Below, one piece after another: positions 15,091 through 34,787 of a DNA stretch of 34,787 nucleotides. This DNA is from Syntrophomonadaceae bacterium (lineage in GTDB: Bacteria; Bacillota; Dethiobacteria; DTU022; UBA8154), in NCBI GenBank assembly GCA_007131175.1, contig SLRC01000003.1, forward strand, positions 1 through 34,787, read 5' to 3'. The stretch's first letter is position 1, and every line of letters starts with the position of its first letter. The notes under the pieces were generated by a model that was not told where the DNA came from, did no database searches, and saw nothing but the letters and a program-made list of their open reading frames with translations. Both the position numbers and the translations under genes were made by a program.

Positions 15091-15104
15091 TTAGAGCATA
15101 AAAT

Positions 15105-18769: not shown

Positions 18770-18774
18770 GTGCA

Positions 18775-18832
18775 AGAGGCAAGAAGCAAGAAACTAAAGG
18801 CAAGAAGAAGGAAGAAGCAAGAAGCAAAATGC
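18775..18832 (+). repeat. Purine-rich low-complexity repeat between argB and argD
   Basis: GCAAGAAGCAAGAA-type units and AAGGCAAGAAGAAGG variants fill most of the gap between the two genes, ending just before the GGAGG site of argD. Confidence 0.6.
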
Positions 18833-18851
18833 AGTTTTTGGAGGAATAAAA

Positions 18852-20051: not shown

Positions 20052-20153
20052 GGTTAACTAGTTGAAAAGAATCAGTGTTTTTTGCCCTTAAACTATAAAC
20101 GTGATCATATTAAATATTTTATTGCATATTTGGACTAAATTTGGGAGGTGAGG

Positions 20154-21092
20154 ATGATTAAAGAAATGTACGGAAGGCATTTTTTGACGTTGCAGGATTA
20201 CTCGCCTGAGGAAATAATAGCCTTACTTGATTTGGCTGCTGAACTGAAGCGTAAACTGCAGCAAAAAGAACAACATCACCTTTTAGCCGGTAAGACGTTG
20301 GGAATGATTTTTAAAAAGCCGTCAACACGGACAAGAGTATCCTTTGAAGTGGGTATGTGGCAACTGGGGGGGCACTCCCTCTTTTTGAGCAGTCAGGAAT
20401 TGCAAATTGGCCGGGGTGAACCGGTGCGTGATACGGCAGCGGTTTTATCCCGTTACGTTGATGGTATCATGATTCGTACCTTTGCCCACAGTGGTATAGA
20501 GGAGTTGGCCCGTCACGCCACTGTTCCGGTGATAAACGGTCTTACCGACCTTTATCATCCATGTCAGGCCCTGGCGGATCTGCTCACCATAAGGGAGAAA
20601 AAAGGGTCAATCTTGCCCGGGCTAAGTGTTACCTATCTTGGTGATGGCAACAATGTGGCCCACTCCCTGATGTTGGGTTGCACCAAGCTGGGAATACATA
20701 TTACAGTATGTGCACCCAAGGGTTATTGGCCCCTGCCTGAGGTCAGGTCAAAAGCAGAGAAAAATGGTGTTGTCTCGGGTAGTAGTGTAATGATTACGGA
20801 TGATCCCCTGGCAGCTGTTAAGGGAGCCGATGTACTTTACACCGATGCCTGGGCCAGCATGGGTCAGGAGCAGGAAAAGCAAGAGCGCAAAAACATATTT
20901 GCACCGTACCAGATAAACGAAACTTTACTTATGCAGGCGGATCCAAGGGCTATTGTTATGCACTGCCTGCCCGCATATCGTGGCGAAGAGATTACCAATG
21001 ATGTCCTTGAAGGAAATCGTTCTGTTGTGTTAGACCAGGCCGAGAACCGCATGCATGCACAAAAGGCCCTGATGGCCATGCTGATGGGGTAA
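20154..21092 (+). CDS. argF: Ornithine carbamoyltransferase
   Basis: Makes citrulline from ornithine and carbamoyl phosphate. Signatures are KKPSTRTRVSFEVGMWQLGG near residue 52 (carbamoyl-phosphate site), MIRTFAHSGIEELA near 105, HPCQALADLLTI near 133, YLGDGNNVAHSLM near 158 and HCLPAYRGEEI (ornithine loop) near 265. The product is 312 residues. Several starts compete: ATG 20154 follows GGGAGGTG at about 5 nt, GTG 20148 lies within that site, and ATG 20166 would begin MYGRHFLTLQDY, nearer the usual N-terminus. The preceding 100 nt hold no terminator, so it belongs to the arg operon. Confidence 0.96.
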   Translation: MIKEMYGRHFLTLQDYSPEEIIALLDLAAELKRKLQQKEQHHLLAGKTLGMIFKKPSTRTRVSFEVGMWQLGGHSLFLSSQELQIGRGEPVRDTAAVLSRYVDGIMIRTFAHSGIEELARHATVPVINGLTDLYHPCQALADLLTIREKKGSILPGLSVTYLGDGNNVAHSLMLGCTKLGIHITVCAPKGYWPLPEVRSKAEKNGVVSGSSVMITDDPLAAVKGADVLYTDAWASMGQEQEKQERKNIFAPYQINETLLMQADPRAIVMHCLPAYRGEEITNDVLEGNRSVVLDQAENRMHAQKALMAMLMG

Positions 21093-21128
21093 AAGGCAGG
21101 CTACAATCTGGAAAGGATGGTGTAAAGA

Positions 21129-22343
21129 ATGGAAAAAGTAGTGTTGGCCTACTCTGGAGGCCTGGACACTTCAATTATTGTAAAATGGCTTATAGAGGAA
21201 TACGGTTATGAAGTAATTGCTTTTGCTGCCGATGTGGGACAGGGGCACGGCGAACTGGACGGTTTGGAAGAGAAAGCCCTGGCTACGGGAGCGTCAAAAG
21301 TATTCATTATGGACTTACGCAAGGAATTTGTTGATGATTATGCTTTCCCCATGCTTCAGTCTGGAGCCCTTTACGAGGGTAAGTACATGTTGGGAACGGC
21401 TATTGCACGTCCAGTTATTGCCCGGGCCATGGTGCAGATAGCCATGCAGGAAGGGGCAACTGCAGTCGCACACGGATCCACGGGTAAGGGAAACGACCAG
21501 GTACGCTTTGAGTTGACCATAAAAGCCCTGGCACCCCAGTTGAAAATCATTGCCCCCTGGCGTATTTGGAATATCCGTTCACGAACGGATGCCATCGCTT
21601 ATGCCCGGGAACATAAAATTCCAGTTCCCGTGACTGCAGAAAAACCATACAGCATGGACCGGAATATCTGGCATATCAGCTATGAGGGGGGGATTTTGGA
21701 AGATCCGACCAATGAACCGCTTGAGGATATGTTTCTTCTTACCCGTTCGTTTGAGCAGGCCCCTGCTGAACCGGAAGAAGTGGAGATAACTTTTGTAAAA
21801 GGCCGGCCTGTCGCCCTTGATGGCGACCCCATGGGCGGCGTAAAACTGCTGGAAAAGCTTAATACGATGGCGGGACGCCATGGTGTGGGACGGGTGGATA
21901 TTGTGGAAAATCGTCTTGTGGGTATGAAGTCAAGGGGAGTTTATGAAACCCCCGGGGGCACGGTCCTTTATTATGCGCACCGTGAACTGGAGCACCTGAC
22001 CTTGGACCGGGAGTCCATGCACTTTAAAGAGATCATCGGCGCTAAATATGCTGAATTGGTCTATTACGGCCTTTGGTACTCACCCCTGCGCCAGGCTCTC
22101 GATGCTTTTATCAGGGAGACGCAGGAACATGTAACGGGTGAAGTCAAGTTGCGCCTTTATAAGGGGAATATTTCCGTGTTAAGTCGTCGCTCTCCCTCAT
22201 CTCTCTACAGCCCTGAACTGGCCACATTTGAAGAAGATGAACTTTATGATCAGAAAGATGCGGGCGGCTTTATTAACCTCTTCGGACTGCCCCTGCAGGT
22301 GGAAGGCCTGTTGCGGCAAAGATGGAAAAAGGAGGTTGAATAA
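21129..22343 (+). CDS. argG: Argininosuccinate synthase
   Basis: Joins citrulline and aspartate using ATP. The N-terminal PP-loop is [17 protein letters not shown], followed by AFAADVGQG. The signature [15 protein letters not shown] is near residue 115, and the citrulline/aspartate site continues in [15 protein letters not shown] near 175. The C-terminal helices include [17 protein letters not shown]. The product is 404 residues, the usual size. ATG start, preceded by GGAAAGGATGG about 8 nt upstream. It is closely spaced with argF (36 nt) and argH (5 nt). Confidence 0.97.
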
Positions 22344-22348
22344 TAACG

Positions 22349-23824
22349 GTGAAAGACAGTAATACGCCGGCAGAAAGAAGGGATCGGCTGACGGCTGATG
22401 GGGATAAACCATGGGGTGGAAGGTTCGATACAGCAATGGATAAAAAGGCTGAGACCTTTCTTGCATCTTTGCCGTTTGATCAGCGTCTTGCCCAGGAGGA
22501 TGTTCAGGGAAGCATCGCTCACTGCCGTATGCTGGTAAAACAAGGTGTGCTCTCTGTGGATGAGGGAGATAAAATACTGGACGGGCTGGCGGAGATCTCC
22601 ACAGAGCTGGCAGAAGGCATATTTCCTTTTGACACTGCATTTGAAGATATCCATATGAATGTGGAAAAGCGTCTCGTGGAGAAAATTGGGATGGTGGGGG
22701 GAAAACTGCACACAGGGCGCAGTCGCAATGACCAGGTGGCCCTTGATCTGCACCTTTATGTGAAAAAAGAAATAAGGGAAACAGATGTCTTGTTGAAACG
22801 CTTGCAGCAGGTTTTATTGGAACTGGCTAAAGAGCACATGGGGGTAATTATTCCCGGGTATACCCATTTGCAGCGGGCCCAACCGGTACTCTTTTCCCAT
22901 CACCTTTTAGCCTATTATTGGATGCTGCACCGGGATCGGGAAAGGTTTCTCGATGCATACGGACGGACAGACATGATGCCCCTGGGGTCAGGGGCGCTGA
23001 GTGGATCCAGCTTTCCCCTGGATCGGGAAGAAACGGCCCGTTTGCTTAAATTTGCTGCATTATATGAAAACAGTATGGATGCAGTAAGCGACCGTGATTT
23101 TGTTGTAGAATACCTTGGTTGCGCCTCCTTGTTGATGATGCACTTAAGCCGCTTTTGTGAGGAACTTATATTGTGGACTTCTCAGGAGTTTTCTTTTGTG
23201 GAATTGGGCGATGCGTTTACTACTGGAAGCAGCATGATGCCCCAGAAAAAAAACCCCGATATTCCAGAGCTCGTGCGCGGTAAAACGGGGCGTGTCTATG
23301 GGAACCTGCTGGCACTTCTCACCATGCTCAAAGGCCTGCCCCTTTCCTACAACAAGGATATGCAGGAGGATAAGGAGCCACTTTTTGACACCGTGGATAC
23401 GATCAAGAAAATACTTGAGCTGTTTCCCCCCATGTTACAGAGTATGGAGTTAAAAAGCGACAACCTTCAACGGGTGGTGGGGCAGGATTTTTCCACAGTT
23501 ACCGAGCTTGCTGATTTTCTGGCAGCTGGAGGTGTTCCTTTTCGCGATGCCCATGGTATTGTGGGACGTTTGGTCCGTTTTACCCTGGATAAGGGGAAGC
23601 TCCCTTCAGAACTGACCCGCACTGAGCTGGCAAACTTTCATCCTTTGTTGGACAGCGAAAAAACCACGCAACTTTTACTGCCAAAAAATGCTGTGGCATC
23701 GCACCGGACCCGTGGCGGAACAGCACCTTCCGCTGTAAAAGAACAGTTAAACAGGGCTCATCGTTTAGCACGCCGCTTGGACAAGCGAGCTGCAAAGATA
23801 TTCAGTGAAGCATTAGATGAATGA
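22349..23824 (+). CDS. argH: Argininosuccinate lyase
   Basis: Splits argininosuccinate into arginine and fumarate, the last step of the pathway. Fumarase/aspartase-superfamily signatures are HTGRSRNDQVALDLHLY near residue 118, PGYTHLQRAQPVLFSHH near 168 and TGSSMMPQKKNPD near 290. The conserved start of the family (WGGRF) appears only at residue 24, so this protein has a charged N-terminal extension of about 20 residues. An ATG at 22438 would remove WGGRF, so the GTG is kept. AAGGAGG lies 12 nt upstream, inside the end of argG, consistent with coupled translation. The product is 491 residues. It closes the operon, with no clear terminator after it. Confidence 0.95.
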   Translation: MKDSNTPAERRDRLTADGDKPWGGRFDTAMDKKAETFLASLPFDQRLAQEDVQGSIAHCRMLVKQGVLSVDEGDKILDGLAEISTELAEGIFPFDTAFEDIHMNVEKRLVEKIGMVGGKLHTGRSRNDQVALDLHLYVKKEIRETDVLLKRLQQVLLELAKEHMGVIIPGYTHLQRAQPVLFSHHLLAYYWMLHRDRERFLDAYGRTDMMPLGSGALSGSSFPLDREETARLLKFAALYENSMDAVSDRDFVVEYLGCASLLMMHLSRFCEELILWTSQEFSFVELGDAFTTGSSMMPQKKNPDIPELVRGKTGRVYGNLLALLTMLKGLPLSYNKDMQEDKEPLFDTVDTIKKILELFPPMLQSMELKSDNLQRVVGQDFSTVTELADFLAAGGVPFRDAHGIVGRLVRFTLDKGKLPSELTRTELANFHPLLDSEKTTQLLLPKNAVASHRTRGGTAPSAVKEQLNRAHRLARRLDKRAAKIFSEALDE

Positions 23825-23993: not shown

Positions 23994-24100
23994 GGGCAGA
24001 AGTCAGAGTGCCAACGAGCCAGCTAAAGAAGTATATCAGAAGTTATTTTTTAGATGTTCTTCCCGGCACACTTATTTCTGACCTCTGACCTCTGCATGGC
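23994..24100. repeat. Inverted pair of R1 repeats (MITE-like) before cobA
   Basis: The left arm GCAGAAGTCAGAGTGCC (from 23997) and the right arm, GGCACACTT with TCTGACCTCTGACCTCTGC, face each other about 60 nt apart and could pair in GCAGAAGTCAGA/TCTGACCTCTGC with one mismatch. The right arm read in reverse ends TGTGCCGGGA, as in the copy at 9471-9528. With the copy at 23907 this fills most of the 310-nt gap between argH and cobA; nothing else is seen there. Confidence 0.6.
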
Positions 24101-24134
24101 AATAAACACATGGGAAAGGAATGACTGCATCTTT

Positions 24135-24662
24135 ATGGAAAAGAAAAAAGGGCTGGTGCTGGTTTATACGGGGGAAGGAAAAGGTAAAACAACAGCGGCT
24201 TTGGGATTGGCGCTGCGAGCCATTGGCCATGGTGCCAAAGTATTTATGGTTCAATTTAAGAAAGGCGATCCCAGTTATGGTGAAATACAGGCAATACGCA
24301 AGTATCTGCCCACTTTCTCCGTTTTCCAGGCCGGTAAAAACCGCATGTGTGAAGGAAAACTCAAGGAAGACGATGTAACTGTTACGTTGGATGGTTTTAC
24401 AGTTGCGAGAGAAGCACTTATCAGTGGAAAATATGACTTATGTATTTTTGATGAAATAAATGTTGTCATGGATTACGGTTTGCTTCCTGTTACCGCTGTT
24501 CTGAAAATGCTGGAAGAGAGGCCTCCTCATGTTGATATAGTCATCACCGGTCGCAATGCCCCGCCTGAAATTTTAGAGCAGGCCGACATGGTAAGTGAGG
24601 TGCGGGAGATTAAACACCATTTCAAATCGGGGATTAAGGCAAGAGTGGGAATGGAATTTTAG
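24135..24662 (+). CDS. cobA: Cob(I)alamin adenosyltransferase, CobA/BtuR type
   Basis: Adenosylates cob(I)alamin or cob(I)yrinic acid a,c-diamide with ATP. The P-loop GEGKGKTTAALGLALRAIGHG is at the N-terminus, followed by VFMVQFKKGDPSYGE. YDLCIFDEINVVMDYGLL near residue 115 and VDIVITGRNAPPEILEQADMVSEV near 135 match the family, ending with the usual KHHFKSGIKARVGMEF. ATG 24135 gives 175 residues, the normal length. ATG 24096 would lie at the edge of a repeat and is less likely. GGAAAGGA is about 14 nt upstream, so the ribosome site is loose. Its position just ahead of a regulator and corrinoid carrier genes suggests corrinoid supply or repair for that cluster. Confidence 0.93.
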   Translation: MEKKKGLVLVYTGEGKGKTTAALGLALRAIGHGAKVFMVQFKKGDPSYGEIQAIRKYLPTFSVFQAGKNRMCEGKLKEDDVTVTLDGFTVAREALISGKYDLCIFDEINVVMDYGLLPVTAVLKMLEERPPHVDIVITGRNAPPEILEQADMVSEVREIKHHFKSGIKARVGMEF

Positions 24663-24679: not shown

Positions 24680-25447
24680 ATGCTGGGTAATCGTATCAGG
24701 ACCTTTCGCCGTGAAAGGGGTCTTACCCTGGGGCAACTTGCTGACAAATCAGGTATTTCAGCCTCTTACCTCAGCACCATAGAAAGGGGCTTAAAGAAAC
24801 CCTCCATACCCTCCCTGAAGCAGATCAGCGAAGCTTTACATGTTTCACCTGCTCTGCTGGTCCATTCGGAGGAGGAAAAGTTTACGGGGGAAAAGCTGCG
24901 CTTGCTGCGGGAGGGAAGGGGCCTTAACAGAGAAGAACTGGCTGAAATTAGCGATCTGCCCCTTTCCCAAATCGAAAAATTTGAAAATGGAGATGCAGTT
25001 CCCGATTACGAGCAACTGGATATGCTTGCCGGAGCCCTGAACCTGACAATCGGTTGTTTTGTTGAGGAAAACTATTATAAAACAAATATTGGATCCCGGC
25101 TGAAACAAATACGTGAATCCAAAGAATTAAGCATAGCCTCCCTTGCTGCCAAGGCAGAAGTTTCACCAGGGCTGATCAGCCAGATTGAGGGTAATTATAC
25201 CATTCCATCACTGGATACACTGGAAAAGTTTGCAGATGTCATGGAGATCACACTTCATTATTTTTTACTTGAAAGCAAGGATGTGGAAAGCCTCCTTTCA
25301 TCCCTGGGGCCCGATTTGCTGGAATTATTGTCAGATCATAAGGTGCAAGCAGTTCTCCATTCAATTAAAGATTTTGATTCAGCTGAACTGCGTTATATCC
25401 TCAATTACCTGCAATTTTTTAAGAGAAACCGCAAGATTCTGTCCTGA
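24680..25447 (+). CDS. Transcriptional regulator with three tandem XRE-type helix-turn-helix domains
   Basis: Cytoplasmic DNA-binding protein, 255 residues, with three HTH_XRE repeats. The first is at about residues 4-60 (RIRTFRRERGLTLGQLADKS, YLSTIERGLKKPSIPSL), the second at 71-125 (LRLLREGRGLNREELAEISD, IEKFENGDAVPDYEQL) and the third at 138-192 (RLKQIRESKELSIASLAAKA, LISQIEGNYTIPSLDTL). The middle copy is the most divergent. The last 55 residues are helical, without a recognised ligand-binding cupin. ATG start, with GAAGGGGGTG upstream, 17 nt after cobA, so probably co-transcribed with it. It lies directly ahead of the corrinoid cluster, whose likely regulator it is by position only. Confidence 0.88.
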   Translation: MLGNRIRTFRRERGLTLGQLADKSGISASYLSTIERGLKKPSIPSLKQISEALHVSPALLVHSEEEKFTGEKLRLLREGRGLNREELAEISDLPLSQIEKFENGDAVPDYEQLDMLAGALNLTIGCFVEENYYKTNIGSRLKQIRESKELSIASLAAKAEVSPGLISQIEGNYTIPSLDTLEKFADVMEITLHYFLLESKDVESLLSSLGPDLLELLSDHKVQAVLHSIKDFDSAELRYILNYLQFFKRNRKILS

Positions 25448-25641: not shown

Positions 25642-25671
25642 TTGCTAAAAGACCTTTTTTAAGTTTATAAT
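25642..25671 (+). promoter_or_regulatory. Probable sigma-A promoter of the first corrinoid protein gene
   Basis: TTGCTA and a perfect TATAAT are separated by 18 nt. Transcription would begin near 25678, before both candidate starts of the downstream gene. Confidence 0.55.
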
Positions 25672-25750
25672 AGAAATTATAATCGGAATAATGCTAAAAG
25701 TCGAAAATATATTTATTTATATTAATGGTATTAGGGCAGGTGGTCTTCCT

Positions 25751-26455
25751 TTGCAGGGGCGTGAAAAAGAATTACTGTCACAATTGAAAGAGGGAGTTAT
25801 AGCCTGCGATGAGGAGGCAGTTGTGGCGCTGTCACATGCCGTAATTAGAGAAGGCTTTGATGCTCTCAGAGCAATATTTGAAGGCTTGGTACCGGGAATG
25901 GAGCATGTGGGCAATCTTTATGAACAACAGGAATATTTTATACCCGAGTTACTCATGGCCACAGAGGCTATGTACGCGGGACTGAATATTTTAAGGCCCC
26001 ATGTTGCCAGGGTTGATTTTGGCGTGGCAGGGGCAGTAGTTATGGGTGTAGTGCATGGGGATGTGCATGATATTGGAAAAAACATTGTGAAAGTAATGTT
26101 CGAGGTTGCCGGCTTTGAAGTCCATGATCTGGGAAGGGATGTTCCCCTGGAAAAATTCGTTGACGAGCAGCTGCATTGTGATGCGGAGCTTGTTTGTTTA
26201 TCCGCCATGATGACAACCACTATGGTGGGAATGCGGAATGTTATCCGGCGCATTAAGGAAAAAAATCCCGAAGCCAAGATTATGGTAGGTGGCGCTCCTG
26301 TTACCCTTGATATAGCTGACAGATACGGTGCTGACTGCTTTGCTGAAAATGCAGGCAATGCTCTAAAGGATGCTATTCGTATGTTTAGCATGCTCCGCCA
26401 GTTACGCCAGCAGGCAATGGATGCGGAAACGGAAGCAGAAAGAGGAAAAAGGTGA
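25751..26455 (+). CDS. Corrinoid (B12-binding) methyl carrier protein 1
   Basis: Cytoplasmic methyl carrier of the MtaC/MtbC/MttC type, cycling between Co(I) and methyl-Co(III). A helical cap domain (about residues 5-85, with GLVPGMEHVGNLYEQQEYFI) precedes a Rossmann B12 domain. The lower-ligand motif is GDVHDIGKNIV (D-x-H-x-x-G), and the tail-binding segments are CLSAMMTTTMVGM and IMVGGAPVT. TTG 25751 (preceded by AGGTGG) makes the N-terminus align residue for residue with the second corrinoid protein; an ATG at 25691 is a longer alternative with poor ribosome site. The product is 234 residues, with a charged C-terminal tail absent from the paralog. About 78% of roughly 170 aligned residues are identical between the two (hand count). 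Confidence 0.93.
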   Translation: MQGREKELLSQLKEGVIACDEEAVVALSHAVIREGFDALRAIFEGLVPGMEHVGNLYEQQEYFIPELLMATEAMYAGLNILRPHVARVDFGVAGAVVMGVVHGDVHDIGKNIVKVMFEVAGFEVHDLGRDVPLEKFVDEQLHCDAELVCLSAMMTTTMVGMRNVIRRIKEKNPEAKIMVGGAPVTLDIADRYGADCFAENAGNALKDAIRMFSMLRQLRQQAMDAETEAERGKR

Positions 26456-26510
26456 AATTAATTTAATGACGAAATATTGTATAAAATTTTAATAGTTATT
26501 TATTTTACAC

Positions 26511-26539
26511 TTGACAATAAATAGTTTGTCTGTTATTCT
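26511..26539 (+). promoter_or_regulatory. Sigma-A promoter for the second corrinoid gene and downstream cluster
   Basis: A perfect TTGACA and TATTCT are separated by exactly 17 nt. Transcription would start near 26546, leaving a leader of about 225 nt before the next gene. Confidence 0.7.
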
Positions 26540-26771
26540 GGGAGAAAATTAGTAGCAAAATAATTACTTCTTAATATATTTTAATGCAAATGGATTTAGA
26601 GCAGGAAATTATATTTTGCATGGCGCCGTTTTTTTTCTGACCTAGCGTTAGTAACAGATAATAAATTATACTATTTATTCTATAAGTACGCAAAATTGTA
26701 ATTTGAGAGAACATTTGAGGGTTATTGTGGCCTGGTCCTGGGCTAAATAGGGATAAAAGGGAGGCGGCAGT
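26540..26771 (+). other. Long AT-rich leader of the second corrinoid gene
   Basis: An untranslated leader without a recognised riboswitch. ATGCAAA (26584-26590) can pair with TTTGCAT (26615-26621), followed 7 nt later by a run of eight T, so weak attenuation is possible. No cobalamin-riboswitch signature was found. Confidence 0.4.
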
Positions 26772-27449
26772 ATGTCGGAAAGAACTGACGAATTGTTTGG
26801 GAAGTTGAAGCAGGGTGTAATCGATTTCGATGAAGACGGGGTAATTGAGGCTGCAAACGCGGTGGTGGATGAAGGCATTGATGCAGTGGAAGCTGTGTTT
26901 AACGGGTTGGTACCGGGGATGGAGCATGTGGGTGAGCTCTATGAACAGCAAGAATATTTTGTGCCTGAACTTTTAATGTGTGCTGATGCCATGTATGCGG
27001 GACTGGAAATACTCAGGCCGCACATGACGCGGAAAAGCCTGGGTGTTACGGGGGTAGTGGTTATGGGGGTGGTGCAGGGGGATGTGCATGATATTGGAAA
27101 AAATATTGTAAAAATGATGTTTGATGTGGCCGGCTTTGAAGTACACGATCTGGGACGGGATGTACCCCTGGAAGTGTTCGTGGAAGAGCAACTCCGCACT
27201 GATGCGGAACTGGTATGCCTTTCGGCAATGATGACCACTACCATGGTGGGGATGAAAGATATCATTAAACAAATCAAGGAGAAAAACCCCAATGCCCGGG
27301 TCATGATTGGCGGAGCCCCTGTTACAGAGGATATTGCTGATAAATTTGGTGCAGACGGTTTTGCTGAAGATGCGAGCAACGCCCTTAAGGATGCCATTAA
27401 TATGCTCACCACACTGAAAAAGATTAAAGATGAGGCGGATTCGGCCTAA
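26772..27449 (+). CDS. Corrinoid (B12-binding) methyl carrier protein 2
   Basis: Second methyl carrier, 225 residues, close paralog of the gene upstream. It has the same cap domain (GLVPGMEHVGELYEQQEYFV) and the same cobalamin-binding GDVHDIGKNIV, CLSAMMTTTMVGM and VMIGGAPVT segments. Differences cluster in the linker between the domains (MTRKSLGVTGVV versus VARVDFGVAGAV) and in the C-terminus, which is shorter. ATG start with GGGAGG 8 nt upstream. It is followed after 21 nt by the RACE-type activator gene, so the pair is likely co-transcribed from the promoter at 26511. Which methyltransferase it serves cannot be told from sequence. Confidence 0.95.
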   Translation: MSERTDELFGKLKQGVIDFDEDGVIEAANAVVDEGIDAVEAVFNGLVPGMEHVGELYEQQEYFVPELLMCADAMYAGLEILRPHMTRKSLGVTGVVVMGVVQGDVHDIGKNIVKMMFDVAGFEVHDLGRDVPLEVFVEEQLRTDAELVCLSAMMTTTMVGMKDIIKQIKEKNPNARVMIGGAPVTEDIADKFGADGFAEDASNALKDAINMLTTLKKIKDEADSA

Positions 27450-27470
27450 TATATTGAAGGAGGAGAAACG

Positions 27471-29417
27471 ATGGGGCATACTGTAATATTTCAGCCCTCC
27501 GGGCGCCGCGGTACTGTGGAAGACGGTGTTAACCTCCTGGAGGCCGCCCGTCAATTGGGCGTAGACATTGAATCACCTTGCGGTGGGGCCCGGGTTTGTG
27601 GCAAATGCAAAGTTAGAGTTGAAGAAGGTGACTTTGAAAAATTCGGGATTATTTCCAAGGCAAGTAATCTTTCAGCTTTAATGGAAGAGGAAAGGGAAGA
27701 GCTGGAAAAAGGGGAGGTTGAAAAGAATTATCGCCTCGCCTGTTGTACCAGTGTTCAGGGTGATGTTCTCATTTTTGTTCCGGAAGAGTCCCGCGGCGCC
27801 CAGCAGGTGATCCTGGAGACAGGGCGGGAGCGGGATATTTCAGTGGATCCCATAGTGAAAAACTACTATATTGAAATGGTTCCGGCGACGCTGGATGATC
27901 AGACAGATGATTTCATGCGGATGAAAGGCGTGCTGGCGGAAAAATACGACCTGCATAATGTTGATTATATTGATTACTTCGTAACCGTTAACCTTCCCGA
28001 GACGATTCGGGCGGCAGACTGGAAAGTTACGGTAAGCATCTGGGACGACAAAGAGATAGTCAAGGTGTCCCCCGGACTGGTGGAAGACCCCTGGGGTGTG
28101 GCCATAGATGTGGGGAGTACCACGGTGGCAGGATATCTCTGCAACCTCCGCACCGGTGAATCCACCGTAAAGAAATCCATGATGAACCCCCAGATCACTT
28201 ACGGTGAAGACGTCCTTTCCCGGATTACTTATTCTATGATGAACGATGATGGCCTGGAAAAAATGAGCAGTGCCATGATCGAAGGGATCAACAATCTGAT
28301 TAAGGGGATGGCTGAAGAGGCAGGTTTGTCTGTGGAAGATATCGTGGATTTAACCCTGGTCGGGAATACGGCCATGCATCACTTGCTTTTGAATATTGAT
28401 CCCAAGTATGTGGGTCGTGCACCTTTTGCCCCGGCCTTTAAATGCAGCGTTGATTTCAAAGCGCGGGATCTGGGGATTAAAATGAATAAAGCTTCTTACG
28501 TACACTGGCTACCCATCGAAGCAGGGTTTGTGGGAGCGGACAATGTGGCTGTGCTCATTGCCGAGGAACCTTACAACCAGGACGGGATGATGCTGGTAAT
28601 AGACATCGGGACCAACGGTGAGATCGTTTTCGGCAACAGGGAAAAGCTCTTTTCCACTTCCTGCGCCACCGGTCCGGCCCTGGAGGGTGCCCAGATCCGT
28701 TTCGGTATGCGTGCTGCGCCCGGGGCAATCGAGTGGGTGAAGATTGATCCTGAAACGAAAGAACCTAAGTTTAAGATTATTGGGGAGGAAGACTGGTTTA
28801 AGGAAGGGGATGAACCTCTGGCCAAGGGTATCTGTGGATCCGGAATTATCGATGTGATTGCTGAAATGTTTAAAGCCGGTGTCATTGATAAAACGGGTCG
28901 CTTTAATAAAAAACTTGATACACCAAGGATCCGTCATGGCGAAGACGGAAAGATGGAATACATTCTCAGCTATGCCAGGGAAACCTCCATTGGCAAAGAT
29001 ATAACCGTCACCCAGGGAGACGTACGGGCTATCCAGTTGGCCAAGTCCGCCCTTTACTGCGGCGCTGAGTACTTAATGGAAAAACGTGGCGTGTCCAAGC
29101 CGGACCAAATCGTGCTGGCTGGTGCTTTCGGCAGCTATATTAACAAGGAGAGTGCCATGGTGATGGGGATGGTACCGAACTGTAACCTTGATAATGTCAA
29201 TGCTGTGGGGAATGCGGCCGGGGACGGGGCCAAGCTCGCCCTGGTAAGCAAGGCCAAAAGGGCTGAAGCCCAGAAAATGGCACTGGATGTGGAATTTATT
29301 GAAACAGCCACCGAACCGGATTTTCAGGAACGTTTTGCAAATGCCATGGCATTTCCGCACCGCAAACACGAGTTCCCCAGTATCCAGCACATTCTTGACA
29401 AAATCCCGCAGAAGTAG
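27471..29417 (+). CDS. Reductive activator of corrinoid proteins (RACE/RamA-analogue, ferredoxin-ASKHA, DUF4445)
   Basis: Uses ATP and low-potential electrons to bring inactive Co(II) corrinoid back to Co(I). An N-terminal plant-type [2Fe-2S] domain (SPCGGARVCGKCKVRVEEG near residue 35, with the last Cys in RLACCTS near 90) is followed by a linker and an ASKHA-fold ATPase/DUF4445 region (GVAIDVGSTTVAGYL near 205, VGNTAMHHLLLNIDP near 300, MLVIDIGTNGEIVFGN near 373, GICGSGIIDVIAEMF near 455). The C-terminus ends in AGAFGSYINKESA and the usual conserved tail. The 648-residue length is normal. ATG with AAGGAGGAG upstream. Its neighbours are both corrinoid carriers and methyltransferases, as in O-demethylase operons. 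Confidence 0.95.
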   Translation: MGHTVIFQPSGRRGTVEDGVNLLEAARQLGVDIESPCGGARVCGKCKVRVEEGDFEKFGIISKASNLSALMEEEREELEKGEVEKNYRLACCTSVQGDVLIFVPEESRGAQQVILETGRERDISVDPIVKNYYIEMVPATLDDQTDDFMRMKGVLAEKYDLHNVDYIDYFVTVNLPETIRAADWKVTVSIWDDKEIVKVSPGLVEDPWGVAIDVGSTTVAGYLCNLRTGESTVKKSMMNPQITYGEDVLSRITYSMMNDDGLEKMSSAMIEGINNLIKGMAEEAGLSVEDIVDLTLVGNTAMHHLLLNIDPKYVGRAPFAPAFKCSVDFKARDLGIKMNKASYVHWLPIEAGFVGADNVAVLIAEEPYNQDGMMLVIDIGTNGEIVFGNREKLFSTSCATGPALEGAQIRFGMRAAPGAIEWVKIDPETKEPKFKIIGEEDWFKEGDEPLAKGICGSGIIDVIAEMFKAGVIDKTGRFNKKLDTPRIRHGEDGKMEYILSYARETSIGKDITVTQGDVRAIQLAKSALYCGAEYLMEKRGVSKPDQIVLAGAFGSYINKESAMVMGMVPNCNLDNVNAVGNAAGDGAKLALVSKAKRAEAQKMALDVEFIETATEPDFQERFANAMAFPHRKHEFPSIQHILDKIPQK

Positions 29418-29463
29418 TATTTTGCTAGAGGAAAAGCAAAATATACTGAAAGGTGAGGGTAAA

Positions 29464-30399
29464 GTGTTTATTCTGAAAAAGGAACAAAAAGTATGTCAAA
29501 TTGGACCGTGGAAAGTGGGAGGGCAACCCGGAGATAATCCGCCGCTGCTTGTTGCTTCCATGTTTCATAAAGGTGATCGCATCCTGGGAAAGCGGAAAGC
29601 CGGAGAGTTTGACCGGGATAAGGCCACTGCCTATATTAAGCGCCAGGAGGAACTTTCAGAGCAGACTGGTATCCCGGCTATTACAGCTATGGTTGCTAAC
29701 TCTGCCGATGAAATGAAGCGTTATGTGGACTTTTTTACAGGGCTGAGTGATAAGCCCTTTGCCATTGATATGTGGATGCAGGATCCCCGTATTGAGGCGG
29801 TCAAGTACGTCTCCGAGCTGGGTATGATGGATCGCCTTGTCTATAACAGCATTACTCCCTGGGATAAGGATATCCCCGGACAGGTGGCAACATTGAAAGA
29901 ACTGGGTTTGAAGCACGTAGTGGTGCAGGTGTATGACGATAATGACCCCACACCGCAGGGCCGGGTTAACAGTTTCCGCAAAATGATGGGGATGATTGGT
30001 GAAGATACCTTTGAAACTATCCTTGTGGATACCTCCGTGATGAACCTTCCCGCAACTTCTTTCTCTTCAGTGGCAAACCGCATGATCAAGGAAGAATTTG
30101 GCGTGCCCTCGGGTCTTGCCTCTTCCAACGGAACATTCATGTGGAAAGCAGCAAGGGAAATGTGGGGGGCTGATGGATTTTCCTCAATGAATGTGGCTGG
30201 TCAGGCTGCGGCAACAATGTTTTGGTGTGACATAATATTTTATGGCCCCCAGGTGATCGCACCGCGTATTTTCCCTGCTGTGGTGAGCGCCACACTCATG
30301 CTGGCCATGTTTGTCTATAATGAAACGGGCAAGTTGCCCACGAACCCCAATCACCCCCTCTATAAATTTTTTAATGATTTTGCGGAGAAGCTCAAATGA
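29464..30399 (+). CDS. MtrH-like methyltransferase (methylcorrinoid:tetrahydrofolate type)
   Basis: Related to subunit H of tetrahydromethanopterin S-methyltransferase. In bacterial corrinoid systems such proteins (MT II) move the methyl group between the corrinoid protein and tetrahydrofolate. Visible family segments are GGQPGDNPPLLVASMFHKGD near residue 18, ATAYIKRQEELSEQTGIPAI near 53, YNSITPWDKDIPGQVATLKELGLKH near 130, ILVDTSVMNLP near 185 and GLASSNGTFMWKAA near 220. GTG 29464 follows AAGGTGAGGG by 4-5 nt and gives 311 residues. A longer open frame from 29287 overlaps the preceding gene and is not likely used. It lies between the activator and a UroD-type methyltransferase. The pterin is inferred to be tetrahydrofolate from the bacterial setting. 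Confidence 0.9.
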   Translation: MFILKKEQKVCQIGPWKVGGQPGDNPPLLVASMFHKGDRILGKRKAGEFDRDKATAYIKRQEELSEQTGIPAITAMVANSADEMKRYVDFFTGLSDKPFAIDMWMQDPRIEAVKYVSELGMMDRLVYNSITPWDKDIPGQVATLKELGLKHVVVQVYDDNDPTPQGRVNSFRKMMGMIGEDTFETILVDTSVMNLPATSFSSVANRMIKEEFGVPSGLASSNGTFMWKAAREMWGADGFSSMNVAGQAAATMFWCDIIFYGPQVIAPRIFPAVVSATLMLAMFVYNETGKLPTNPNHPLYKFFNDFAEKLK

Positions 30400-30435
30400 T
30401 AAGTGTTCTATAATACTGATGAGGTGGTGCAATAA

Positions 30436-31494
30436 ATGGCATTTACACCGAAAGAACGTGTCTTAAAACAGCTTGCCGGTGAAGAAATTGACAGAGTCCC
30501 CTGCTATAGTGGTATGGGGAATGTGACTGTAGCCGGACTGGAACAACTGGGTTATAAGTTTGCTATGGTCCACGGCGATGCGGAGATGATGGCCAACCTG
30601 GCTGCCACTTCCTACAAACTATATGGCTACGAGTGCGCCGTAGTCCCATTTGACTTCTGCGTGGAGGCGGAAGCACTGGGTTGTGTGATGAATGCGTATG
30701 AAAATGTGGCTCATCTCCTTTATCCAACCATCAAGGAGAAAGCCATCGAAGACGAAGAAATGCTGGATAAATTCCCAATTCCCGATGATCTTGCCAACGC
30801 TGGCCGTGTTCCTGTGGTCGTTGAAGCGATAAAGCGTTTAAAAGGGGAGTTTGGCGACGAGGTTCCCATCGGCACTTACTTCCTTGGTCCTTTTACCCTC
30901 GGAGGACAGGTTTACGACCTGGATAAAATGCTCAAGTATGCTTTTAAAAAGCAGGATTTGATTAGCGCCATGCTTGACCGGCTTGCTGATGTGCTGATCC
31001 GGGTGGCAAAAATTTACCAGGATGCGGGAGCGGACTATATTACTGTGCGGGAAATGGGCAGTGGAACCGATTTGCTCAGCCCCCGTCTCTGGAAAGCACT
31101 GATCAAACCCCATCTTGTGAAAATATTTGAAGCTTTAAAGGAGATGGGTATCCCCAACAACCTGCATATTTGTGGCGAGACAAATATGATTATCAAGGAT
31201 ATGAACGAATGTGGTGCTGATTCCATGAGCGTGGAATTAAAGAATGATGTGGCTAAGTCAAGGGAAGATATTGGTACTGAACCCCTTATATTCGGGAACC
31301 TTGACGCTTATAAGCTGCTTGTTGTTGATCCGGCGGAAGCGGTGGAAGGGGCTGTTATCAATGCCCTGGATCAGGGTGTGGATGCGATTTGGCCCGGGTG
31401 TGATATCTGGCCGGAGGCGAAGCCGGAAAACGTTAAAGCACTGGTTCAGGCGACAGAGAAACATGGTGCCGCTAAGTGGTTCCGTAAAAAATAA
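30436..31494 (+). CDS. UroD/MtaA-family corrinoid methyltransferase
   Basis: TIM-barrel protein of the uroporphyrinogen decarboxylase-like methyltransferase family (MtaA, MtbA, CmuA, O-demethylase MT I). The zinc site expected of methyltransferases is present: H-x-C in NNLHICGETNMI near residue 240 and a distal Cys in AIWPGCDIWPEAKPENVKAL near 320. These distinguish it from true heme-pathway UroD. The N-terminus (FTPKERVLKQLAGEEIDRVPC) and YFLGPFTLGGQ are typical. At 352 residues it is full length. ATG with GAGGTGG about 11 nt upstream. It probably demethylates the growth substrate onto one of the two corrinoid proteins; the substrate is unknown. A second family member starts at 34116. Confidence 0.92.
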   Translation: MAFTPKERVLKQLAGEEIDRVPCYSGMGNVTVAGLEQLGYKFAMVHGDAEMMANLAATSYKLYGYECAVVPFDFCVEAEALGCVMNAYENVAHLLYPTIKEKAIEDEEMLDKFPIPDDLANAGRVPVVVEAIKRLKGEFGDEVPIGTYFLGPFTLGGQVYDLDKMLKYAFKKQDLISAMLDRLADVLIRVAKIYQDAGADYITVREMGSGTDLLSPRLWKALIKPHLVKIFEALKEMGIPNNLHICGETNMIIKDMNECGADSMSVELKNDVAKSREDIGTEPLIFGNLDAYKLLVVDPAEAVEGAVINALDQGVDAIWPGCDIWPEAKPENVKALVQATEKHGAAKWFRKK

Positions 31495-31511
31495 CAGCTG
31501 AAAAAAAGTTC

Positions 31512-31540
31512 CTGGCCTCCTAATGAGTGATGGAGGCCGG
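31512..31540. other. Strong hairpin between the methyltransferase and the DGC genes
   Basis: GGCCTCC (31514-31520) pairs with GGAGGCC (31532-31538), extended by T-G and C-G. There is no T-run on the plus strand, but a run of seven T follows on the minus strand, so it is not a normal terminator for the upstream gene. It may be a processing or pausing site dividing the operon. The rest of the 200-nt gap shows no clear promoter. Confidence 0.4.
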
Positions 31541-31694
31541 TTCCAATAAAAAATGTCAGAATTAAGGTAATTGTGGCGAGATTGGAAAGATAGTAGCAAT
31601 TTGAGATCTCTACGGCGTGAATTTGGTTGTAATCTTTAAACATGAAGTAATTCTATATTCCACATTTAATTGTGCTTTAAAGGAGATGATTCCC

Positions 31695-32246
31695 GTGGTG
31701 GAACGTGTCTGTATTTTTCCATGTGGCGGGATTAAAAAAACAGAGGCTACGGTGGCCCGTATTGCCGGTTATATTGTAAATGAAGATTTGTTGCCCCGCC
31801 AGACAATGCTTCTTTGTGTGCCCGCATTTCTGCGAGGGGTGGAGGAGGATCTGGTAATGGTGGAGGACTATCCTACCCTTGTAATTGATTGCCATGCTGA
31901 GAATTGCGGAACAAACCTCCTTTACCTTTCCGGTATAACACCGGCAGCCCGCGTATTTATCCCCGATTTGGCGGGCCAGCACGATCTTGCCTACGGGACC
32001 CAGCGGCGGGAGCTGGAACCGGAGGCACAACAATTGGCGGAAATTGTGGCCCGGGAGACAGCCCGTGCGGCCCTTGCTATGTTGGAAAACCCCCTTTATA
32101 ACTTTGAAAAACAGCGGATCAAGACTGATACATGCCTGGCACAAAGGGGCCTGCCGGCAGATCCATTCGACTACGTGCAGCTTGCACCGGGGCTCTACCG
32201 TCCAAGAAATATGCCGGACTTTTTCCCGGAAGGAAGTGATACCTGA
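31695..32246 (+). CDS. DGC-like putative zinc-binding protein (no selenocysteine)
   Basis: A 183-residue protein related to DGC-motif putative zinc-binding proteins, whose function is unknown. Near the N-terminus is IFPCGGIKKTEATVARIAGY, and near residue 75 LVIDCHAENCGTNLLYL, which aligns with IIIDGCAYQCGSNLFRL of the next gene. A helical C-terminal region follows, ending APGLYRPRNMPDFFPEG, again matched in the next protein (KEGIYRPADMPKL). GTG 31695 lies 9 nt after GGAG; ATG 31686 is too close to that site. The stop overlaps the next start (TGATG), so the two are translated together and probably form a complex or succession of paralogs. No Cys aligns with the neighbour's TGA codon. Confidence 0.8.
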   Translation: MVERVCIFPCGGIKKTEATVARIAGYIVNEDLLPRQTMLLCVPAFLRGVEEDLVMVEDYPTLVIDCHAENCGTNLLYLSGITPAARVFIPDLAGQHDLAYGTQRRELEPEAQQLAEIVARETARAALAMLENPLYNFEKQRIKTDTCLAQRGLPADPFDYVQLAPGLYRPRNMPDFFPEGSDT

Positions 32247-32836
32247 TGGAAAAAGTACAAAAGGTTGCAATTTATCCCTGTGGCGGAGTTGGTTTCCCCC
32301 TTTCCAGCGTTGCCCGCTATGCCACTTTCATCGTTACCGAGGATCTCCTTCCCGGCGAAACAGAGATCGTGGATGCGGTTAGGTTGATCAGTGGTTTCCC
32401 TGAGGATGTGGAACTGGTGGAAAACAATCCAACCATAATTATTGACGGCTGTGCCTACCAGTGCGGCTCCAACCTTTTCCGCCTGCTCGGGCTTAAGCCT
32501 GCGGCCCGCATCCTGGCTACGGTAATCTCCAAGCTGCCTCCCACCTTTGTCTGAGACTGTAAAAAGGAGGAGACAAGTTTGTCTCCTGGCAGAGAGCGCC
32601 GTGTTCCCGGTGAATCAGGGAAAAACCTGGCCATGGAAATTGCTACGCAGATAAAAAATATCGCCCTTGTCATGCTCAATCTTAATTACCCCTTTAAAAG
32701 ACAAAAAATAAAGGAAGAAAGGCTCGAAATTTGCGATTATATCGATGATATACCGGAAGCAATGGATTATCTAACCGTTAAAGAAGGCATCTACCGACCG
32801 GCAGACATGCCTAAACTGACAGGTTTGGAACCATAG
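32246..32836 (+). CDS. DGC-motif putative zinc-binding selenoprotein (TGA read as Sec103)
   Basis: Read through the TGA at 32552-32554, the frame gives one 196-residue protein that matches the preceding DGC-like protein from end to end. The N-terminal part has VAIYPCGGVGFP and the DGC motif in IIIDGCAYQCGSNLF near residue 75. The C-terminal part is NLAMEIATQIKNIALVML through KEGIYRPADMPKL. Sec103 falls in PPTFV-U-D-C-KKEE, a U-x-C pair typical of redox selenoproteins, in a segment about 12 residues longer than in the paralog. A hairpin sits at the right distance after the TGA. The rival model is two genes, with the second starting at TTG 32579 behind AAAAAGGAGGAG. Two neighbouring TGA-containing genes favour Sec. 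The function is unknown. Confidence 0.7.
32552..32587 (+). promoter_or_regulatory. Candidate bSECIS of the DGC selenoprotein
   Basis: AGGAGAC (32568-32574) and GTCTCCT (32581-32587) form a perfect 7-bp stem around AAGTTT. The loop begins 20 nt after the TGA and includes a GU, as expected for bacterial SECIS loops. Part of the stem also looks like a ribosome site. Confidence 0.6.
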
Positions 32837-32868
32837 GATTGTTGCCTTGATAAGGAGGTGTATATGCG

Positions 32869-33348
32869 GTGGCTTTACTCACATCTGATGAGTTTTATGG
32901 TCAGAGTGTAACGGTGGATGACCGCTATTTCTACTATCCCCCTGAGCATCTTTGGGTGGAGGATGGGGGCAACGGTGTTTACCGCTTTGGTTTTACCCAT
33001 GCGGGTGTGATCCTGGTTAACGGCTTCAAATACATGGATTATGCCGTTGAAACAGGTGATGTTTTGGATGTGGACGACAGCGTTTTGTTTGTGGAAACTT
33101 TTAAGGCTATGTTTAATGTTACCACGCCGCTTGCCGGGGAGGTTCTCGCCATCAACGAAAAATTGGCTGAGGAAGGGATAAAAATCCTCGAAGAAAAGTA
33201 TTTTGAGGAATATATATTTGAGTTGAAATGTGAAGGGCCCGATGTAACAGCTGAGCTGCTAAACCCCCAGCAGTACATGGAGGCATTATTGCGTGGCGAT
33301 TCCGATCACTGCGGTGCCGGGGCTCGGGTTATGCGTAGAAACAGGTAG
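32869..33348 (+). CDS. GcvH-like lipoyl carrier protein
   Basis: Resembles glycine cleavage H protein, 159 residues. The lipoylation region VETFKAMFNVTTPLAGEVLAIN, near residues 75-100, matches the GcvH pattern (V-E-S-V-K-A ... P-x-S-G-E-V), and the Lys is conserved. The N-terminus has RYFYYPPEHLWVEDGGNGVYRFGFT, equivalent to the HEW region of GcvH. The C-terminal 40 residues (FELKCEGPDVTAELLNPQQYM) are like GcvH with a short tail. GTG follows AAGGAGGTG by 9 nt. No gcvT or gcvP is present; it sits between a DGC selenoprotein and two thioredoxin-like selenoproteins. This suggests a lipoyl group serving another redox or methyl-transfer reaction. Confidence 0.88.
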   Translation: MALLTSDEFYGQSVTVDDRYFYYPPEHLWVEDGGNGVYRFGFTHAGVILVNGFKYMDYAVETGDVLDVDDSVLFVETFKAMFNVTTPLAGEVLAINEKLAEEGIKILEEKYFEEYIFELKCEGPDVTAELLNPQQYMEALLRGDSDHCGAGARVMRRNR

Positions 33349-33364
33349 AGGAGTGGTAAAGGTA

Positions 33365-33658
33365 TTGGATCAGTCTGAACGAAAATTAGTGATTGAGGCT
33401 TTTGTGAATGATTTTGTCCAGTGAACCCCTTGCGTTTATCTGCTGTTAGCAGTAAAAAATATCCCCAACATACTGGGTGACCTTGCAGATAATGTTGAAA
33501 TCAAACAATGGGACCTGCGCACACCGGAAGGGATTAGCCGTAACAATGAGTTGGGAATTACCACTTTTCCCACTATTGCAATTGGTGGCGATGTGCTTTT
33601 TGAGAGCGTTATTCCTTCAGAAGATGAGTTGCTGGAGGCTATTAAAGCACGGCTCTGA
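33365..33658 (+). CDS. Small thioredoxin-like selenoprotein 1 (Sec20, U-T-P-C)
   Basis: The frame is open on both sides of the TGA at 33422-33424 and gives a 97-residue protein with the thioredoxin-fold plan: AFVNDFVQ-U-TPC-VYLLLAVKN, then WDLRTPEGISRNNELGITTFPTIAIGGDVLF with the cis-Pro (F-P-T), and a final helix SEDELLEAIKARL. U-x-x-C stands where thioredoxins have C-x-x-C. TTG 33365 is preferred, with AAAGG/GAGGAG upstream; GTG 33353 is possible. It begins 16 nt after the GcvH-like gene. Its paralog follows after 20 nt. It likely reduces or exchanges disulfides of a partner such as the lipoyl protein; this is inferred. It is too short, and split by TGA, to be found by ordinary gene calling. 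Confidence 0.85.
33422..33452 (+). promoter_or_regulatory. Candidate bSECIS of thioredoxin-like selenoprotein 1
   Basis: CTGCT (33440-33444) and AGCAG (33448-33452) form a 5-bp stem around GTT; the loop starts 20 nt after the TGA. The stem is identical in the next gene. Confidence 0.65.
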
Positions 33659-33678
33659 TACTTGGAAGGAATGGTTTT

Positions 33679-33978
33679 ATGAATGAGATAAAGATGGTCA
33701 ATCTTGAGGTTTTTGTGCAGGACCTGAATGATTTTGTACGGTGAGTCTCCTGTGTTCTGCTGCTGGAAGCAGTGGAGGTGTTTTTAAATGAGCATCCCGA
33801 TTTAGCACCACACGTTACTACTAAACGCTGGGATCTTAAAACTGCTGCAGGTTTTCAGCGTATTAATGAGTTGGAAATTACTGTATTTCCCACAATTACG
33901 CTTGACGGAACAATAACTTTCCAGGGTCGGATACCGGATGAAACTGAATTACTGGAATGTATTAGCTCCTGTTTCTGA
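33679..33978 (+). CDS. Small thioredoxin-like selenoprotein 2 (Sec22, U-V-S-C)
   Basis: A 99-residue paralog of the preceding gene: FVQDLNDFVR-U-VSC-VLLLEAVEVF, then KRWDLKTAAGFQRINELEITVFPTITLDGTITF with the same cis-Pro segment, and the end helix DETELLECISSC. The TGA at 33742-33744 occupies the position of the first active-site Cys of thioredoxins; the C-terminal SSC adds another Cys. ATG with GGAAGGA 8 nt upstream. An open frame starting downstream of the TGA (33772) is only a fragment. The conservation of WDL, NELxIT and FPTI between the two proteins on both sides of the TGA shows that both are single genes. The function is unknown but most likely dithiol/selenol redox. Confidence 0.85.
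33742..33772 (+). promoter_or_regulatory. Candidate bSECIS of thioredoxin-like selenoprotein 2
   Basis: CTGCT (33760-33764) and AGCAG (33768-33772) form a 5-bp stem around GGA; the loop starts 20 nt after the TGA, the same geometry as in the paralog. Confidence 0.65.
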
Positions 33979-34115
33979 TCATAGCATCACCATAATGGAA
34001 GCTGGGGGGTGGTATTGGCTGTTTATAGCTAGTTGCATCGTGTGCAGGGGAAGAATGGTTTTAAGAACGGTTAATGGGGTTCAGTTGCAAGAATTAAGAA
34101 GGAGGATTGAGAAAG

Positions 34116-34787
34116 ATGGGAATGCAGACGTTGCTTGATGCCTATCAGGGCAAATATACGCCAATAGTGCCATGGGTTCCCTATGCGGGGGTGCATGTGG
34201 CCTACATGATCGGTGAAAAAGCGGATGTTTACGCACAGGACCCGGATCTTATTGTCAAAGGTGTATTATATGCTGCCGAACGCTACAAGGCAGATGGAAT
34301 TCCGCTCCAGTTTGACTTAAATATTGAAGGGATGTCCATGGGCTGCGAAGCTACCTGGTATCCGGACAACCCGCCCGCCATCACCGGACACCCATTAGCC
34401 GACAAGACTCTGGCTGAAGCCAACTTGAAGATTCCCACGGCTACAGACGGACGTTGGCCCGTGGTGGTGGAAGCTGGGAAAAAGATTATGGCGCAAAAGG
34501 GTGACTGGGCGTTATTAGGCCTGCTCTGCGGTCCCCTGACCCTGGCTTCTCACCTTCGCGGTGTAAAAATCTTTACAGACGTGATTAAAAATAAGCCCCT
34601 GGCCCATGAGATCCTTGAATTCTGCGGCAAGGTTTGCGCCGAGTCGGCCCGTATCTACCGTGATATCGGTTGTGAAATTATCGGCATCGTGGACCCGGTG
34701 GCATCCCAGATTCGACCTGAGACTTTCCGGGAGTTTGTGACTCCGAATTGTCAGGAAGCGAAACAGGTGATTCATGATGCGGGCCGT
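34116..34787 (+). CDS. UroD-family methyltransferase, 3' end beyond the window
   Basis: Open frame of 224 codons running off the right edge. It resembles the UroD/MtaA barrel family: an N-terminal TPIVPWVPYAGVHVAYMIGE, then YAAERYKADGIPLQFDLNIE, GLLCGPLTLASHLRG near residue 135, and DIGCEIIGIVDPVASQIRPE near 190. The expected H-x-C zinc motif would lie just after the cut, so methyltransferase versus decarboxylase type cannot be checked here. ATG with GGAGG 10 nt upstream. It differs clearly from the UroD-type gene at 30436 and ends the visible cluster. Two different UroD-type methyltransferases alongside two corrinoid proteins may mean two substrate or partner specificities. Confidence 0.82.
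   Translation, partial: MGMQTLLDAYQGKYTPIVPWVPYAGVHVAYMIGEKADVYAQDPDLIVKGVLYAAERYKADGIPLQFDLNIEGMSMGCEATWYPDNPPAITGHPLADKTLAEANLKIPTATDGRWPVVVEAGKKIMAQKGDWALLGLLCGPLTLASHLRGVKIFTDVIKNKPLAHEILEFCGKVCAESARIYRDIGCEIIGIVDPVASQIRPETFREFVTPNCQEAKQVIHDAGR

Follow-up and report, generated by a model that had tools for sequence, protein, structure and literature searches.

A conserved corrinoid methyl-transfer operon with its own lipoyl carriers and predicted selenoproteins, and the methyl compounds it may handle

Introduction

Why should genes for corrinoid-dependent methyl transfer be kept together with lipoyl carriers, with genes for making lipoate, and with thioredoxin-like proteins that seem to contain selenocysteine (Sec)? 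This question is raised by a contig of 34,787 nucleotides (SLRC01000003.1, our C57) from a Syntrophomonadaceae bacterium (assembly GCA_007131175.1; 2.16 Mb, 77% complete), the whole of which is called the window here. Its final part, 25691-34787, is a cluster encoding two corrinoid proteins, a reductive activator (RACE), an MtrH-family methyltransferase, two UroD-like methyltransferases (UroD1 and UroD2), two DGC-domain proteins (DGC1 and DGC2), a lipoyl carrier resembling the glycine cleavage H-protein GcvH (GcvHL1), and two thioredoxin-like proteins (Trx1 and Trx2). A first-pass annotation, made from the letters alone, had named all these parts, and each was found as it said. The window breaks off within UroD2 because the contig ends there. 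Another contig of the same genome, C188, overlaps the final 121 bases of the window and carries the operon onward: the 3′ part of UroD2, a third thioredoxin (Trx3, motif CAAC), LipA, a lipoate-protein ligase-like protein (LplA), a dihydrolipoyl dehydrogenase (Lpd) that passes TIGR01350, a second lipoyl carrier (GcvHL2), and a channel of the MIP family. The channel is of the GlpF type (aquaglyceroporin) by reading of its motifs (NPA...NPARD), and such a gene adjoins the cluster also in two relatives, G289 and G360. With LipA, the ligase and Lpd on C188, the operon would therefore make, attach and recycle lipoate. Judged from its genes, it is one conserved system for corrinoid methyl transfer that has lipoyl carriers and genes for lipoate synthesis and recycling of its own, and up to four predicted selenoproteins. 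Searches of the literature on lipoate with corrinoids, on GcvH with selenoproteins, on the DGC domain, and on lipoate with ars operons brought up nothing describing this system.

Conservation of the operon

Do these genes really belong together? The module was found in eight genomes, and its gene order is repeated in four congeners, in two members of the class that fall in other families (G289, 99% complete, and G360, a complete genome of 3.56 Mb), and in one genome from another class (G245). In the other families the order reads corrinoid protein-RACE-MtrH-UroD1-DGC1-DGC2-GcvHL-Trx1-UroD2-Trx3-LipA-LplA-Lpd-GcvHL2. G245 keeps most of it, with the RACE-MtrH-UroD1 half about 13 kb away from the DGC-to-Trx3 half and pyrrolysine and methylamine genes between them. 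Among 98 genomes of the class, six contain a strong match to UroD2, and each of these six has the cluster; in G003 the cluster is present and the contig ends ahead of UroD2. A scan of 84,980 species yielded only six named loci, among them those of Dethiobacter sp., Syntrophomonadaceae bacterium and Peptococcaceae bacterium. The operon is rare yet well conserved. This linkage supports the proposal of the first-pass annotation that the methyl-transfer genes and the lipoyl/selenol module form one system, and the pattern that it had set against its own proposal, redox genes scattered without conserved linkage, was sought across the genomes and not seen.

Between UroD1 and DGC1 lies a strong hairpin followed by a TGTCAGAATWA box, also present in G001, G003, G004, G289 and G360. 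It may act as a terminator, an attenuator or a regulatory element, so that separate regulation of the second half is possible. The hairpin with its box and the gap in G245 are a caveat that leans toward the objection raised beforehand, that the module might be an independent operon with different regulation.

Three-component corrinoid methyltransferase operons, built of MT I, corrinoid protein, activator and MT II, such as MtgBCA and those for O-demethylation, likewise have a corrinoid protein, RACE and an MtrH/MtgA-type methyltransferase. Unlike them, the block conserved here lacks a substrate enzyme of the MttB type or a UroD with carboxylate ligands, and has the lipoyl/Sec module added. By sequence reading, the cluster is closely followed in several relatives by genes for methanol use (mtaB, mtaC) and for pyrrolysine; at loci L026, L045 and L099, mtaB/mtaC, genes for pyrrolysine synthesis or its tRNA synthetase, and RamA-like genes stand downstream of the cluster or between its halves.

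Lipoyl carriers and lipoate

What kind of carriers are these? GcvHL1 passes PF01597 and scores 43 bits with the gcvH model TIGR00527, whose cut-off is 115.85; GcvHL2 matches NF045810 (GcvH-related protein) over its full length with 109 bits, and both carriers stay below the family cut-offs. With the H-protein of glycine cleavage and with NF045810 they share the lipoyl hairpin and its conserved lysine, whereas the C-terminal DHCGAGAR...RRNR and their placement in the tree, as a clade apart from classical GcvH, set them off. In G360, LipA and H-protein-like carriers occur nowhere outside the cluster, except for a weak 44-residue match that stays under the family cut-off. G289 shows this too, as does G001 except for one weak 50-residue match. 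The E2 protein of 2-oxoacid dehydrogenases was found in none of the eight genomes. With LipA and the carriers confined to the cluster and E2 absent, lipoate therefore seems dedicated to the cluster, and no other argument speaks as strongly for a joint action of the carrier and the methyl-transfer genes. A normal GcvH is encoded elsewhere in G003, G004 and G245, G004 has a second LipA, and no LipA homologue was found in G245.

Selenocysteine codons

The first-pass annotation had reported in-frame TGA codons in three of the redox proteins, and these are indeed there, at 32552 (DGC2), 33422 (Trx1) and 33742 (Trx2). They are not chance readthrough, because protein similarity runs on beyond each of them in other genomes and Cys or Sec stands at the same column. 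All copies of Trx1 carry TGA at a column where Trx3 has Cys. At the DGC2 column, three congeners have TGA, G002, G289, G360 and G245 have Cys, and G001 has Ala. A fourth TGA, which had escaped that annotation, lies in UroD2: it is conserved in 7 of 7 orthologues, is followed by about 44 conserved residues, and corresponds to Cys in the paralogues of G360 and G289.

Downstream of every one of these TGA codons a stem-loop stands at the distance of a bacterial selenocysteine insertion sequence (SECIS), taken as about 15-35 nucleotides 3′ of the UGA. The stem of UroD2 contains one covarying pair (C-G to U-A), and its folding energy by itself is not above that of shuffled sequences; the stem of DGC2 also contains one covarying pair, and the Cys versions have no stem. 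The shuffle statistics of the stems are weak to modest, the sequences being few and alike. In G001 the Sec codon of DGC2 is replaced by GCA (L025:12457-12459) and the SECIS-like stem with its covarying pair is still kept; the Sec codon was apparently lost there recently. The genome encodes SelB, above cut-off, and a tRNA-Sec above the gathering score of the Rfam model, and ARAGORN applied beside SelB gave a tRNA-Sec in G245 only. From these comparisons, the TGA codons of DGC2, Trx1, Trx2 and UroD2 behave as Sec codons. The best match of Trx1 and Trx3 is NF047660, a thioredoxin-like selenoprotein family with the HUIPC motif; Trx1 shares its UxxC, but the scores, about 37 bits or less, are far under the cut-off of 105. 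Neither UroD nor DGC is among the 119 prokaryotic selenoprotein families listed in a 2026 review (PMC13188914).

Elsewhere in the window, at 6589-9366, there is a formate dehydrogenase gene with an in-frame TGA of the ordinary Sec type, with NuoEF-like genes upstream.

Metal sites of the UroD proteins

Within the UroD superfamily, a His-Cys-Cys site marks S- or Se-methyltransferases and carboxylate ligands mark O-demethylases (PMC10418091). UroD1 scores above the cut-offs of the MtaA/CmuA family, including TIGR01463 and NF004889, and His-Cys-Cys is present in every copy of UroD1 and UroD3 that was examined. UroD1 is thus, by family and ligands, predicted to be of the S-methyltransferase type. 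UroD2 aligns over its full length with MtaA (4ay7), and its Sec falls on the C-terminal zinc-ligand Cys of that enzyme. Compared with the methylcobamide:coenzyme M (CoM) methyltransferases MtaA and MtbA, whose His-Cys-Cys is shared by UroD1, UroD2 has Phe or Tyr in the place of His, then Cys, then Sec at the last Cys. A Cys-type relative, UroD2b, has Leu, Cys and Cys. UroD2 is thus an unusual branch, in which both remaining ligands suit a soft atom. An O-demethylase of the UroD type was also considered and set aside: no carboxylate or missing-Cys site was found, UroD1 having His-Cys-Cys and UroD2 Cys plus Sec. In G289 (L098:9271-12407), the genes for UroD2b and OsmC stand together and are transcribed away from a MarR gene and an HgcA that passes its cut-off, a neighbourhood that counts toward a link with arsenic or metals.

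What does the lipoyl arm carry?

In function the system is like a corrinoid cluster for S/Se-methyl transfer, and is neither a glycine cleavage nor an ars cluster. RACE proteins reduce Co(II), MtrH/MtgA proteins pass methyl groups between corrinoid and, in bacteria, folate, and MtaA-type UroD proteins pass them between corrinoid and a thiol. As(III) is chelated by vicinal dithiols, and neutral metalloid hydroxides pass glycerol-type aquaporins. How might the parts then act together? The dihydrolipoyl arm of GcvHL1 and GcvHL2 would serve as a vicinal dithiol attached to a protein and hold a substrate with its methyl group on a soft atom. DGC1 and DGC2 might load or unload this substrate, and UroD2, with its Cys/Sec site, would shift the methyl group between the lipoyl carrier and the Co(I) of a corrinoid protein. 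UroD1 may act with a partner thiol or in a second methyl transfer. MtrH would connect the corrinoid to tetrahydrofolate, RACE would rescue Co(II), the UxxC thioredoxins with Lpd would re-reduce the dithiol, and the aquaglyceroporin could move a small neutral substrate or product.

That the lipoyl/Sec module acts on the methyl-transfer reaction itself is probable; for the scheme as a whole, we see the chances as evenly divided. Of the suggestions in the first-pass annotation, a one-carbon or sulfur intermediate on lipoate comes close to this scheme, which has a methyl compound on the lipoyl dithiol, while a supply of electrons from the module to the activator found no support. Demethylation is the likely direction, because MtrH and the adjacent methanol and methylamine genes feed methyl groups to folate; the reverse, methyl transfer onto arsenic as detoxification, is an option.

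Which soft atom would it be? We place arsenic first, sulfur next and selenium third, and even arsenic is named tentatively, with the chances somewhat against it. Dimethylarsenic is demethylated by methylotrophic methanogens, for which a corrinoid route has been suggested and no enzyme identified (PMC10579292). DGC genes occur in 52 of 398 genomes sampled from the phylum, and in 16 DGC regions picked by hand for reading, an ArsR-type regulator is found in 14, Acr3 in 9 and GcvH in 8, with ArsM, OsmC, Lpd, LipA and LplA as further neighbours. The clearest region, L144, has ArsM, ArsR, Acr3, GcvH, two DGC genes, OsmC, Lpd, LipA and LplA, of which ArsM, Acr3, Lpd, LipA and GcvH pass curated cut-offs. 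DGC and GcvH are even fused into one protein in five genomes (L131:8541-9413, L132:7651-8529, L134:2205-3077, L137:6748-7602 and L138:7273-8259). Next to these fusions lie ArsR-type regulators and one or two more DGC genes. L135 and L136 resemble L144 in having ArsR, Acr3, GcvH, two DGC genes, OsmC and Lpd, and some of the three add LipA/LplA and ArsM; a literature search turned up no description of such arsenic-lipoate clusters, which are apparently undescribed. They share with our operon the DGC pair, an H-protein-like carrier, Lpd, LipA and LplA, but they have ArsR, Acr3, OsmC and sometimes ArsM, and no UroD or corrinoid genes, and their DGC and GcvH proteins are not one-to-one orthologues of those in the operon.

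Several points weigh against arsenic and against the scheme. The 16 regions are a non-random choice. The tree rules out that DGC1 and DGC2 are direct orthologues of the pair in the arsenic clusters; they arose by duplication within their own lineage, and the clade of GcvHL1 and GcvHL2 is separate also from the GcvH of arsenic clusters. The link to arsenic is, on these trees, one of shared family content and not of shared descent, a functional hint on the families and no more. Homologues of ArsR, Acr3 and ArsM were not found in the scanned parts of the loci of the operon's own type (L026, L029, L032, L045, L047, L099 and L100). AlphaFold with Foldseek gave no structural match to DGC with E <= 0.001, and the predicted model of UroD2 is poor around Sec, where ligand geometry cannot be judged. 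An anaerobic corrinoid path in which methylated arsenic (or S-methyl) borne on a lipoyl dithiol is demethylated by a Sec-containing UroD and its methyl group handed to folate is rather unlikely as so specified.

Other readings

Could lipoate simply stand in for CoM? UroD1 and UroD2 would then methylate or demethylate a thiol of dihydrolipoyl-GcvHL, forming S-methyl-lipoyl, in the use of methanethiol or dimethyl sulfide or as a methyl store. The enzyme type of UroD1, the thiol acceptor used by MtaA-type enzymes, a carrier dedicated to the cluster, and Dethiobacter sp. among the named relatives are all in favour, and a dihydrolipoyl protein is a possible partner here in place of CoM. The arm may in addition carry sulfur after its release, as it does in the lipoate-dependent sulfur oxidation of sHdr/LbpA, a non-classical pathway that likewise has a GcvH-like lipoyl carrier and lipoate machinery of its own; here, however, LipA is classical, methyl transfer is corrinoid-dependent, and Hdr-like proteins, DsrE and TusA were not recognised. 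In the conserved module no sulfur-specific or Hdr-like gene was recognised, and the neighbours of DGC and GcvH elsewhere indicate arsenic. We rate this reading as unlikely, if the best of the alternatives.

Salvage or use of methyl-selenium, with the thioredoxins and the lipoyl dithiol handling selenide, is a good deal less probable. It would recall what has been proposed for dimethylselenide use in Methanococcus voltae and for the type 1 mlp gene clusters described by Kountz and Balskus (PMC10418091), which are marked by an Mlp2 and an Mlp3 together with a corrinoid protein and RACE. With them the operon has in common a corrinoid protein, RACE, an MtaA-like UroD, a selenium setting with Sec machinery, and occurrence in anaerobes; its many selenoproteins would also raise the demand for selenium. 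Those clusters are, however, described without lipoyl carriers or DGC proteins and usually without a folate methyltransferase, whereas the operon encodes MtrH, both DGC proteins, Sec thioredoxins, a UroD with Sec but no His in its metal site, and lipoyl carriers accompanied by LipA/LplA/Lpd. Mlp proteins have His-Cys-Cys apart from several Mlp1, as UroD1 does and UroD2 does not, and on account of UroD2 we do not class the operon among the type 1 mlp clusters.

Slightly less probable still is that the lipoyl, thioredoxin and DGC proteins give redox support only, protecting or reducing the activator or the thiols of the methyltransferases and carrying no substrate, which was the first suggestion of the first-pass annotation. 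UxxC thioredoxins, Lpd and lipoyl carriers would make a plausible chain from NADH to thiols. Against this, related corrinoid operons function without such a module, Sec sits also inside the metal site of UroD2 and is thus not confined to redox proteins, dedicated lipoate synthesis is a high price to pay for reducing thiols in general, and we know of no link from lipoate to RACE. Finally, ordinary glycine cleavage genes lying by chance beside methylotrophy genes are most improbable: GcvHL matches PF01597 and Lpd and LipA are shared parts, but its gcvH score is low and its clade its own, GcvP and GcvT were not recognised in the cluster, and the true GcvH is separate in G003, G004 and G245.

Features of the window and its surroundings

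The coordinates are collected in Table 1. A T-box leader lies at 15104-15400, upstream of an arginine biosynthesis cluster (15458-23824). Several genomes have, close to the operon, a DUF6951 protein and a QueG-like 4Fe-4S protein (L032:5479-6555, L047:2279-3528), and a DUF6951 gene is found also upstream in G289 (L044:4597).

Table 1. Operon genes, flanking genes and RNA elements, in window positions unless a locus is given.
Feature	Position	Strand	Remarks
CobO/BtuR-like, corrinoid adenosyltransferase by sequence	24054-24662	+	flanking gene; upstream place kept in G001 and G289
XRE-type regulator, several helix-turn-helix repeats	24680-25447	+	position immediately upstream conserved
Corrinoid protein 1, B12-binding, MtbC/MtgC type	25691-26455	+	start uncertain: homology sets in about 60 bases later
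Corrinoid protein 2	26772-27449	+	copy retained in G289 and G360
RACE/RACo reductive activator, AcsV-like	27471-29417	+	
MtrH-family methyltransferase, MtgA-like	29467-30399	+	passes subfamily cut-off; presumed corrinoid-to-tetrahydrofolate step
UroD1, MtaA/CmuA family	30436-31494	+	His-Cys-Cys zinc site; thiol methyltransferase type
Conserved intergenic hairpin, then TGTCAGAATTA	31511-31564	+	terminator/attenuator or regulatory element
DGC1, DGC-domain protein	31695-32246	+	passes PF08859
DGC2, predicted selenoprotein	32246-32836	+	TGA 32552-32554; UDC motif, CDC in four relatives; passes PF08859
SECIS-like stem-loop 3′ of DGC2 Sec codon	32569-32586	+	
GcvHL1, H-protein-like lipoyl carrier	32869-33348	+	lipoyl Lys79, motif ETFKAM; invariant C-terminal DHCGAGAR-x-x-RRNR
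Trx1, predicted selenoprotein, UxxC (UTPC)	33365-33661	+	TGA 33422-33424
Trx2, predicted selenoprotein, UxxC (UVSC)	33679-33978	+	TGA 33742-33744
UroD2, 5′ part	34116-34787	+	3′ part at L032:2-511; TGA at L032:377-379

Concluding remarks

The operon points to an undescribed handling of methyl groups on sulfur, selenium or arsenic. What would it mean if the scheme is true? Lipoate would gain a role beyond oxoacid dehydrogenases, glycine cleavage and sulfur oxidation, and the UroD and DGC families would enter the selenoproteome, UroD with Sec in the metal site of a methyltransferase. It would be the first lipoate-dependent corrinoid methyl transfer and the first Sec-containing UroD enzyme, and it would offer a candidate oxygen-independent C-As demethylase for the dimethylarsenic activity that lacks an assigned enzyme (PMC10579292). 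The eight genomes give experimenters a short list of genes and organisms, and the arsenic reading can be tested in one operon.

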